From: Sulfurisphaera javensis
Lineage (GTDB): Archaea; Thermoproteota; Thermoprotei_A; Sulfolobales; Sulfolobaceae
Length of the DNA stretch: 64,000 bases
NCBI RefSeq assembly: GCF_041154675.1
Contig: NZ_AP031322.1
Location: forward strand, 558,001 to 622,000
Reading direction: 5' to 3'
Below are positions 42,453 to 47,295 of this stretch, piece after piece; position 1 is the stretch's first letter; each line of letters starts with the position of its first letter. A program made the translations under genes and the position numbers. The notes beneath the pieces are model-generated. The model saw only the letters and a list, made by a program, of their open reading frames with translations, did not search any database and was not told the origin of the DNA.

Positions 42453-42506
42453 CAGTGATGAACGCGTCCTTATCTGATTTGTGAAGACATCCACCGGGAC
42501 TGATTA
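42453..42506 (+). ncRNA. C/D box methylation guide RNA
   Basis: All boxes are present in order: box C GTGATGA (42455-42461), box D' CTGA (42474-42477), three-base spacer, box C' GTGAAGA (42481-42487), box D CTGA (42500-42503). Both guides are 12 bases, the usual archaeal length. The D guide CATCCACCGGGA is complementary to TCCCGGTGGATG, like the CGGTGGATG stretch near the 5' end of 23S rRNA. The D' guide ACGCGTCCTTAT is complementary to ATAAGGACGCGT. By the fifth-base rule each would direct methylation of a G. Abuts the nitrilase gene stop tail to tail. Confidence 0.88.
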
Positions 42507-43220
42507 ATCCAGTTCATTAACGTCGAATTGCCTATATTCTTTTAACCTCTCAATTCTAAAATTCATATAAGAAAGAGGATTAATATCTACAACGATATAT
42601 CCTTCCTTATCTCCTAACTCACCTACGGGTTTTGGTTCAATAAATCTGCCTCTTAAAGCTGGGATATAAGCAATACTCATTCCCAGATATTCTGGGGGAG
42701 AAAAAGTGTTTGAGTTAACAATAGCAATCCTATTTTCTAATACTCTAACTTTTAAATACTCTCTCCATAAATCTATTCCATCTACGGGTATTTTAGAAGG
42801 AACTAACAAAATTTCAACACCTCTAAGAAACATTTCTCTTATGATTTCTGGGAAATCTATGTCATAACAAATAGATATTCCTATCTTAACTCCTCTATAT
42901 TTAAAAATAGTTGCAGAACTTCCAGAAATTAATCTGTTTTTCTCATCTCCAAATAGATGAATTTTCTTTGCTATAGATTTAATGTTACCGTTTGGGTCTA
43001 TTATTGGAGAAATTATTGACACGCCATCTTCAACAGCTCCAGGTATAATATATGCAGTGTACTTCTTAGCTAATTGTTGGAAACTCTGTAAAGGTAATTC
43101 ATCAAGGGTTTTTACCCATTTTTCCGGTAACAGTACTATTTCAGCGCCATTCTTTAGAGACTCTTCAGTGAGAAATAATGAATTAGCTATATTTGATGGT
43201 TGTACAATACCAATCTTCAA
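42504..43220 (-). CDS. nitrilase-superfamily carbon-nitrogen hydrolase
   Basis: Hydrolyses an amide or nitrile. Catalytic triad is complete: E33 (LPEKW), K86 (KKIHLFG) and C118 (ISICYDIDFPE). 238 residues, a short member like the omega-amidase or NAD-synthetase-like branch. Overlaps the CBS/HPF-like gene end by 4 bases, so they are co-transcribed. The substrate is unknown. Confidence 0.9.
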   Translation of the reverse strand: MKIGIVQPSNIANSLFLTEESLKNGAEIVLLPEKWVKTLDELPLQSFQQLAKKYTAYIIPGAVEDGVSIISPIIDPNGNIKSIAKKIHLFGDEKNRLISGSSATIFKYRGVKIGISICYDIDFPEIIREMFLRGVEILLVPSKIPVDGIDLWREYLKVRVLENRIAIVNSNTFSPPEYLGMSIAYIPALRGRFIEPKPVGELGDKEGYIVVDINPLSYMNFRIERLKEYRQFDVNELD

Positions 43221-44344
43221 CCTTCCTCTGCCTTTGGCTTTCTTCCTTTTGTTTCAATTTTTCTTAATTCTCTATTTACTCTTTCTTCTAACTTTTCTAC
43301 TGCTTTTCTAACAGCAGTTACTGGATCCCAGTCAGACTCTTTACTTATAAAATCACCTATTTTAGTTACAGCCCTTGCAGTTACTTGGTACATTTTCTTA
43401 TCTTGACTCTTTGCTACTTCTTTGAAGGTTACTTTAAAGTTTATGACCTCTGTAAGTTTTTCAAGTCTTGATAAATATCTCTCCAATATTCCATCAATTA
43501 ATGCTTTAGTATCTCCTTGTCTTAAATCACTACTGAGTTTTGCTTCTATAGGCATTTCTAACTCAAATTTCTTAGCTATTAAATTAACTACATCTATACC
43601 ACTAAACATTCCAACAACTATTTCTCCTTCAACGACTGGCATTCCAGAGATTTTCCTTTTTAACAAAGTTTCAACTGCTTGCTTTACTGATTGATTTCCA
43701 TCAGTTGTAATAACTGGATAATTCATTATTTCTTTGACTGGTAAAGCCATCAATCTTTCTTCTTCTGTTAATATTGATGATTTCTTCTTACCCCCTTCTG
43801 AATATAACCTATTTACGATATCTCTAGTAGAAACTATTCCAACTAATTTCTTTTCCTCTAATACTGGTAACTTAGAAATGTGATTATTACTCATTAACCA
43901 TCTAGCCCTAGCAACTGAATCGTTTGAGTTAACTGTAATTACTGGAGTAGTCATAATTTCTCTAACTTTTGCATCTGGAATTTCTCCCCTATTAAGATAA
44001 TATGAGAGAAGGCTTTCTCTAGTTATTATTCCAACTAATCTTTTTTTATCATCGACTACTATTAAAGCTCTAGATTTAGTTGTAAAGAACTTAGCTACGA
44101 TCTTTGCTTCATCATCTGTTTCTACTATGTTATTAGAAGGAGTCATTAGATTAATAACCTTAGATTCTGGACTCACCTTTCTTCTCAATAACTCATTGTA
44201 GCTTATTATTCCGATTACAACCTTTTCTCTTATTACTGGAACAACCCATTGATTATTTTCTTGCATCTTAGAAATGAGGTCCCTTATTCTATCATTATAT
44301 GATGCAATAACCTTTGGTTCCTCTAAGAGCTCTTTTGGTATCAT
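43217..44344 (-). CDS. four-CBS-domain protein with C-terminal HPF/RaiA-like domain
   Basis: 375 residues from ATG 44344, which is 27 bases from the centre of a TATA box. Four CBS motifs at about 10-60, 66-120, 127-182 and 204-260 form two Bateman modules that bind adenine nucleotides. Residues about 275-363 ([17 protein letters not shown], then [11 protein letters not shown] and [18 protein letters not shown]) resemble the S30AE fold of ribosome hibernation factors. Archaeal CBS proteins such as Dri of Pyrobaculum bind and idle ribosomes, so I infer an energy-sensing hibernation factor. Followed by the nitrilase gene. Confidence 0.7.
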
Positions 44345-44365
44345 TAAGGAAAAATCCAGATGTAC

Positions 44366-44376
44366 ACTTATATAGT
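44366..44376. promoter_or_regulatory. shared symmetric TATA box for two divergent leaderless genes
   Basis: ACTTATATAGT, nearly its own reverse complement. Its centre (44371) is exactly 27 bases from the GTG of the rightward deacetylase-like gene (44398) and 27 bases from the ATG of the leftward CBS/HPF-like gene (44344). Both distances fit transcription starting at the first base of the start codon. AAAAA-rich sequence flanks the right side and could be the BRE for the leftward gene. Confidence 0.6.
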
Positions 44377-44397
44377 TTTTCAACGAATATATTGTGT

Positions 44398-45453
44398 GTG
44401 CACAAAACAGCATTTATATGGGATGATAAGTATCTTGACTATTCTTTTCCGGGGGATCATCCGTTTAAATCTCTAAGAGAAGCTATGACTAAAAAATTTC
44501 TTGAAGAGAGAGGAGCATTCCATGAAATAGATATTGTTAAACCTAAAATAATTAGCGAAGAATTATTATCTCTTATACATTCAAAAGAGTATATAGAATT
44601 TGTAAAAAAGAAAAGTGAGACTGGAGAGGGTTTATTAGATGATGGAGATACTCCAGCATTCAAGGGTATTTTTGAGGCTTCTCTAATAAGAGTAAGTGGT
44701 ACAGTTACAGCAGTTGAATTAATAGGTAATTCATCTTATGATCATGCTGTAAATGTAGGTGGTGGTTTTCATCACGCTAAACGTTCTGAAGCTTCTGGCT
44801 TTTGTGTATTTAATGACGTAGCTCTAGGCATTAAATTAGCTGAAAGAAAGCTTAAGAAAATAGCATTAATAGATATTGACGGACATCACGGGGATGGTAC
44901 GCAATATCTACTCTATGATGATCCTAACGTTTTAAAGGTTTCTTTACATATGTATCATCAGAGGTTTTTCCCTGGGACTGGAAGTGAAGAGGAGATCGGA
45001 GAAGGGAATGGAAAAGGTCTTACTATAAACATACCTTTACCTCCTGGTACTGCTGATGATATGTATTTATATGCATTTAATGAAATAGTTGTTCCCAAAG
45101 TTAAGGAGTTTAAACCGGATCTAATTTTCTTACTTAACGGTGGGGATGCTTATTATGAGGATCCTTTAGTTGAGTTAAAGCTTTCTACAAAAGGGTATTT
45201 AGAAGTTGTTAGGACTATACATTCCCTTTCTCATCAGTTATCAAATGGAAGGCTAATAATGACTGGAGGAGGAGGATATAACTATGAAGCCACAGCTAGA
45301 ATTTGGACTCTATCTATAGCAGAAATAGCTGGGTTAGATTTTACTGAATTTGAAAATTTAGAGGATTGCTGCTTTATAGCTTCTAGTGAATTTGTGAAAA
45401 AAAGAGTAATGGAAATTGTAGAAAAATTGAAGAAAATACATGGAATTAAGTAA
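44398..45453 (+). CDS. histone deacetylase/AcuC-family amidohydrolase
   Basis: Zinc-dependent deacetylase fold. Catalytic region [38 protein letters not shown] and [12 protein letters not shown], where the metal-binding Asp and His are present. The GTG at 44398 is supported by the TATA box and gives an AcuC-like start [12 protein letters not shown]; upstream in-frame codons lie in the divergent gene. 351 residues. Sulfolobus has no histones, so targets may be acetylated proteins such as Alba, acetyl-CoA synthetase, or polyamines. Confidence 0.88.
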
Positions 45454-46692: not shown

Positions 46693-47295
46693 TTACTTGT
46701 TTAAGTAAATGCCTATCCAATCTATTAAAGGTTTCGAGTCTTTAATGACGTAATAAAAACATCTCCATTTTCTTGTTTTGCAATTCCCAGACCATGGAAA
46801 AACTATAGCTCCAATTTTAAACCTCTTTTCATAGTCAATAATTTGACTAACAGAATAATCTCCTACTTTTGCTTCAATTGCAATCTTATTTTCAACTATG
46901 AAATCAGGCTTATTGTGAGATTTAAATCCAAATTTAGAGAGGGAGATAAAAATCTCTTTATTTCTTTCCACTCTATAATATCTTGAAAGTAAAGAGTACA
47001 CATATTCTTCAAAAAGGTATCCAATTATCTGATTTACTCTTAGTTTTCTAGATGAAATATCAGGATAAGCAAGTGCATAATTTACATTTACTTTAATATT
47101 GACTACTTTTTCTAATTCATGTAATTTCTCTAAAAGTACATATTCATCTCCTAAAAAAGAAAAGTTATAATTAGTTATTTCATTTCCTTTATTATCAAAA
47201 ACTTTTACGTTATCTTTATCAACTATTACTATTATATCTCCATCTTTAGAAGGAACCAACTTATCCTTATCGAGTTTGTATAAAAACACTTGCAC
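46693..47295 (-). CDS. putative PD-(D/E)XK-fold nuclease
   Basis: 200 residues. The second half shows the restriction-endonuclease-like core: GYLFEEYVYSLLSRYY (E96/E97), KPDFIVENK (D131) and IAIEAKVG (E141-A-K143), then a helix beginning SVSQIIDYEKRF. The first 80 residues are separate and beta-rich (DGDIIVIVDKDNVKVFD). GTG start at 47295. Such cores occur in Holliday-junction resolvases and Card1/Can2-type effectors; neither a CARF domain nor a Hjc signature is clear here. Confidence 0.7.
   Translation of the reverse strand: MQVFLYKLDKDKLVPSKDGDIIVIVDKDNVKVFDNKGNEITNYNFSFLGDEYVLLEKLHELEKVVNIKVNVNYALAYPDISSRKLRVNQIIGYLFEEYVYSLLSRYYRVERNKEIFISLSKFGFKSHNKPDFIVENKIAIEAKVGDYSVSQIIDYEKRFKIGAIVFPWSGNCKTRKWRCFYYVIKDSKPLIDWIGIYLNK

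Follow-up and report, generated by a model that had tools for sequence, protein, structure and literature searches.

A HibA-type CBS-HPF protein of Sulfurisphaera javensis and the nitrilase-family gene that overlaps it throughout Sulfolobaceae

In the window analysed here (64,000 nt of Sulfurisphaera javensis, NZ_AP031322.1, positions 558,001 to 622,000), the gene at 43217-44344 on the minus strand raises the question of which protein combines CBS domains with a ribosome-hibernation-like tail, whether such a protein links adenylate charge to ribosome idling, and why a nitrilase-family gene overlaps it, a partner left unexplained in the initial annotation. The open reading frame encodes 375 amino acids followed by a stop codon. 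Pfam recovered the four CBS motifs that had been noted (138.9 bits; E 6e-41 over the protein) and placed an S30AE/HPF domain (PF02482) at residues 287-363 (30.4 bits, curated cut-off 23.7). This gene gave the sole PF02482 match in the genome (2,569,661 bases, one contig; 34 bits at 43256-43486), and a single S30AE gene over the cut-off was likewise found in each of four relatives. An in-frame ATG is present upstream at 44413; the start at 44344 is supported because its ATG is conserved among relatives and adjoins the short putative promoter region that separates the two divergent genes.

Based on a phmmer search against the PDB, nearly the whole protein (residues 20-357) was matched by chain 9sr9_H (E 2.3e-24). 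This chain bears the PDB name 'Dehydrogenase', and the entry title does not confirm its nature; it was identified as Pyrococcus abyssi HibA because its length (392 residues) and domain order are those given by Madru et al. 2026 (Nat Commun, PMC13324472). 9sr9 was absent from the Foldseek list for the full model, the library of which probably ends in April 2026, and was recovered by the sequence search. According to the main text of that paper, which describes HibA in P. abyssi, HibA proteins are archaeal proteins that plug idle ribosomes under stress, the P. abyssi tail filling the mRNA/tRNA channel of the 30S subunit and the CBS module lying on the tRNA sites of the 50S subunit (PMC13324472). 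They bind 70S ribosomes, inhibit translation, preserve 70S in stationary phase and occur in 47% of archaeal genomes; the work on HibA in Thermococcus barophilus reported a lag extended from 2 to 4 h and about 60% lower stationary-phase 70S (PMC13324472). The S. javensis gene is a member of the HibA family, and since the CBS-HPF fusion has been published for this family, the fusion itself is not new. By analogy, Sulfolobaceae HibA would act as a ribosome-hibernation factor, the domains, fold, order, conservation and gene overlap being what is established here. We are highly confident in the combined reading that this gene is the Sulfolobaceae HibA, that adenylates probably bind at CBS3/CBS4 and that the nitrilase is probably made from the same message as an amidase of dormancy. 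A literature search on Sulfolobus and Sulfolobales returned nothing relevant for a HibA homologue, its nitrilase or hibernation.

HibA was found in all 31 Sulfolobaceae-like genomes of the same family, covering 11 genera. Among genomes sampled across the order it was present in 28 of 98, most other families being without a match at the threshold used, and 79 of 398 genomes of the phylum matched at E 1e-40. In the HibA tree, the sequences of the family were grouped with full support, with the exception of one very long branch. A contig scan with the single HibA protein matched Sulfolobales archaeon HS-7 as the sole named relative. The HibA architecture, so far shown at work in Thermococcales only, is now placed in all sampled Sulfolobaceae, and because this thermoacidophilic family includes the genetically tractable Sulfolobus acidocaldarius, the mechanism becomes testable in a second archaeal phylum.

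Besides HibA, the same genome encodes at least five stand-alone four-CBS proteins (genome coordinates G000:C1:1614826-1615554, 1643900-1644688, 424875-425615, 330095-330799 and 1125842-1126555). For one of them the closest match was a CBS chain from 9znf, the ribosome entry with SriA/SriB (E 1.6e-29), and another was SSO3205-like. HibA has been reported to co-occur rarely with such modules.

The overlapping gene is located at 42504-43220 (minus strand) and encodes a nitrilase-superfamily protein of 238 amino acids (CN_hydrolase, PF00795; 59.6 bits, cut-off 23.2). The 4-base overlap described earlier was read as TTGA, combining the TTG start of the nitrilase with the TGA stop of HibA. Such an overlap was found at 29 of 30 HibA-nitrilase junctions (28 TTGA and one GTGA), with the two genes abutting at the other. 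The motifs LPEKW, KKIHLF and ICYD, containing a putative Glu-Lys-Cys triad, were present in 29 of the 30 nitrilase sequences. None of the NCBIfam equivalogs for nitrilase, deaminated-glutathione amidase or N-carbamoylputrescine amidase fitted (best 47.6 bits, cut-off 500), and a specific name was rejected because NCBIfam and PDB yielded generic amidases only. The nitrilase would probably be made from the HibA message, with its translation coupled through the TTGA overlap.

On its other side, HibA faces a 53-bp divergent intergenic region (44345-44397) with one near-palindromic TATA-like box, CTTATATAG (approximately 44366-44375), which lies midway between the two gene starts, 25-30 bases from each, and is kept in the nearest genera. 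We infer that this region is the promoter for both genes; because of the box-to-start spacing either way, both messages are probably leaderless. The divergent gene, encoding a histone-deacetylase-like (HDAC-like) hydrolase, lies at 44398-45453 (plus strand; PF00850, 290.5 bits) with a likely GTG start at 44398; in 19 of 20 regions this gene and HibA are arranged divergently. Additionally, in 17 of the 20 regions the PurT-like gene is accompanied by an open reading frame of 200 amino acids (46693-47295, minus strand), the C-terminal half of which contains a stretch, PDFIVENKIAIEAKVG, that by eye resembles a PD-(D/E)XK nuclease motif.

The partnership with the nitrilase proved real, as the best nitrilase match lay directly behind a HibA gene in 31 of 31 family genomes from 11 genera, a linkage that is therefore not chance. 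In a survey of 20 regions of about 20 kb, whose centring on HibA favours central pairs, HibA-nitrilase was the best-kept junction of the neighbourhood (20 regions), followed by HibA-HDAC (19), HDAC-PurT (18) and the next pair (17); pairs on the nitrilase side were kept in 3 to 11 regions, and all pairs other than HibA-nitrilase in 0 to 19. In Sulfolobales archaeon HS-7, the nitrilase was the only one of the tested close neighbours of HibA to be retained. In one genome of the family (G098), the syntenic HibA was extremely diverged (branch 2.8) and the nitrilase behind it no longer carried the catalytic Glu and Cys, its motifs reading LPKDW and IGHD, while a second, normal HibA without a linked nitrilase was present elsewhere. 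This looks like joint decay of HibA and nitrilase within this one genome assembly. The two copies lie at L086 9181-11003 and L087 9142-10296, and the normal copy lies near a stand-alone four-CBS protein. Among 26 HibA regions outside Sulfolobaceae, one nitrilase-family neighbour was found, directly upstream of a distant HibA in a genome outside Sulfolobales (L135 3103-3954, genome G326); it is divergently oriented and may well be there by chance. The HibA paper's main text makes no mention of a nitrilase (PMC13324472), and the coupling in Sulfolobaceae thus seems undescribed; the attachment of a nitrilase to hibA throughout this family is a new lead beyond that text.

Our best guess is that the nitrilase is a co-expressed metabolite-repair amidase. 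It would be a small amidase expressed alongside HibA in dormant cells, and its task would more likely be the removal of a metabolite than an action on the ribosome. The presence of four other CN-hydrolases in the genome was counted against this reading. The use of synteny as proof of its function was tempered, since conservation of the HDAC-like and PurT-like neighbours comes close to that of the nitrilase. Indeed, the HDAC-like, PurT-like and further neighbours were kept in 14 to 19 of the 20 regions, as expected if the nitrilase were a passenger in an old gene order inherited in Sulfolobaceae and tied to hibernation by shared transcription alone. However, HS-7 kept the nitrilase after losing all those neighbours, the overlap was conserved across 11 genera, and the joint decay in G098 also speaks against a mere passenger. 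Weighing these points, we give the passenger explanation slightly less than an even chance.

A stronger proposal is that hibernation in Sulfolobaceae consists of HibA plus a dedicated, coupled nitrilase-type amidase, the two forming one functional module that would act on entry or exit, with HibA itself, a ribosome-derived substrate or a CBS ligand as the target of the nitrilase. The linkage in 31 of 31 genomes, the conserved 4-base overlap, the retention of the nitrilase in HS-7 and the G098 locus, where a diverged HibA is followed by a nitrilase without its catalytic Glu and Cys while a second, normal HibA is located elsewhere in the same genome, are all consistent with it. Nevertheless, the linkage is confined to Sulfolobaceae, with 1 divergent case in 26 regions outside; HibA of Thermococcales appears to work without a nitrilase, judging from the silence of the paper's main text (PMC13324472); the second HibA of G098 has no linked nitrilase; and other neighbours are well kept too. 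A dedicated module is unlikely in our estimate, and the co-expressed metabolite-repair amidase is retained as the preferred reading.

The initial annotation had further proposed that, through the fusion, ribosome idling would be tied directly to adenylate charge. The CBS module (residues 1-257; 43574-44344, minus strand) is predicted to form an AMPK-gamma-like disc of four CBS domains. Residues 1-257/261 of the AlphaFold model matched MJ1225 (3lfz; Z 29.3, rmsd 2.1 over 252 residues) and SSO3205 (3ddj; Z 28.8, rmsd 2.1 over 252). The loop between CBS3 and CBS4 (residues 182-202 approximately; 43739-43801, minus strand) coincides in position with the PTC loop of P. abyssi HibA (190-207), and E195, E196, A200 and P202 were invariant or nearly so in alignment A1; a corresponding function is suggested by homology. 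The confidence of the model was low in this loop and at the last residues of the protein. The nucleotide motif G-x-x-S/T-x-x-D of CBS3 extends from G169 to D175 (43820-43840, minus strand). G169 and D175, as well as the equivalent G245 and D251 of CBS4, were conserved in 29 of 29 sequences, unlike the motif aspartate position of CBS1 and CBS2, which varied in the same comparison. Invariant aspartates at CBS3 and CBS4 only fit the single adenylate site reported at CBS3/4 of P. abyssi HibA, where the main text gives Kd values of 12 µM for AMP, 65 for ADP and 113 for ATP and no signal for GMP or GTP (PMC13324472). Adenylates therefore probably bind Sulfolobaceae HibA at the CBS3/CBS4 interface, as far as conserved residues can indicate.

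Adenylate binding might make HibA a gated switch, in which AMP or ATP at CBS3/4 decides ribosome engagement and energy charge sets idling. The invariant nucleotide-site aspartates, a fold shared with AMPK-gamma-like proteins that bind AMP, among them AMP-bound SSO3205, and the binding of AMP by the P. abyssi module, which gave no signal with GMP or GTP, all point in this direction. By contrast, AMP left the ribosome-bound classes of P. abyssi HibA unchanged and ATP added a weakly populated state alone; according to the authors, neither nucleotide clearly altered how HibA bound the ribosome, and native complexes showed no nucleotide (PMC13324472). Half of the earlier proposal is thus supported, by the invariant motif: adenylate sensing by HibA is plausible, direct control of ribosome binding is unproven, and we consider a true adenylate-gated switch doubtful.

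The tail (43247-43549, minus strand) was assigned by model secondary structure, homologous tails and structural matching. In the full AlphaFold model it reads E266-269, H277-297, E300-313, E316-327, E331-338 and H341-366. PF02482 was matched individually by 28 of 28 homologous tails, and a profile of these tails against PDB sequences returned 9sr9_H first (E 2e-4) and then chains of the HPF, RaiA, protein Y or PSRP1 type only. The tail alone matched the P. abyssi HibA chain weakly (E 2e-4), which was counted against the HibA reading. Modelled alone (pLDDT 74), it superimposed on YfiA of the Thermus ribosome (4y4o; Z 11.0, rmsd 2.3, 94 residues) and on E. coli HPF (Z 11.0, rmsd 2.1, 91 residues); the nine Foldseek matches with E<0.001 were all of HPF type, as were the best 29 entries of the structure ranking. 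Pfam, the PDB profile search and the predicted fold all give HPF, so that a lack of structural similarity to S30AE was not what was observed, and the HPF/RaiA-like tail read from the letters is an HPF domain by each of these comparisons. A chance match by a double-stranded RNA-binding-like alpha-beta domain is very improbable and is contradicted by the profile searches, because dsRNA-binding domains, although present further down the structural list at Z about 8, are outranked by HPF entries spanning more residues, the curated PF02482 cut-off is passed and none of the 28 tails matches a dsRBD model.

Compared with known systems, bacterial HPF/RaiA/YfiA, long HPF and plastid PSRP1 share the fold of the C-terminal domain and lack a CBS module, whereas the AMPK-gamma-like archaeal CBS proteins MJ1225 and SSO3205 resemble the N-terminal module in fold (Z about 29) and lack an HPF domain. 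The Sri proteins of Methanosarcina acetivorans (9znf, 9zng and 9zni) are ribosome-bound CBS modules of the same fold; the listed chains, of 270 to 339 residues, match the CBS part alone and have no HPF/RaiA domain. Archaeal Dri (Pyrobaculum calidifontis, 9e6q and 9e7f), which had been suggested for structural comparison, also consists of ribosome-bound CBS modules with the same fold as that of HibA. However, Dri carries eight CBS domains in two modules and lacks an HPF/RaiA domain, in contrast to the single CBS module plus S30AE found here, and was therefore ruled out as the proper comparison in favour of HibA. The HibA family is present across archaeal lineages, and in the proteins of P. abyssi (Pab0961, Q9UYR4) and T. 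barophilus four CBS domains precede HPF/RaiA in one chain, as in S. javensis. The long CBS3-CBS4 loop and the CBS3/CBS4 nucleotide motif are common to P. abyssi HibA and the Sulfolobaceae protein, which are similar in length (392 versus 375 amino acids). They have low sequence identity and are set apart by the coupling to a nitrilase gene in Sulfolobaceae, which the main text of the HibA paper leaves unmentioned.
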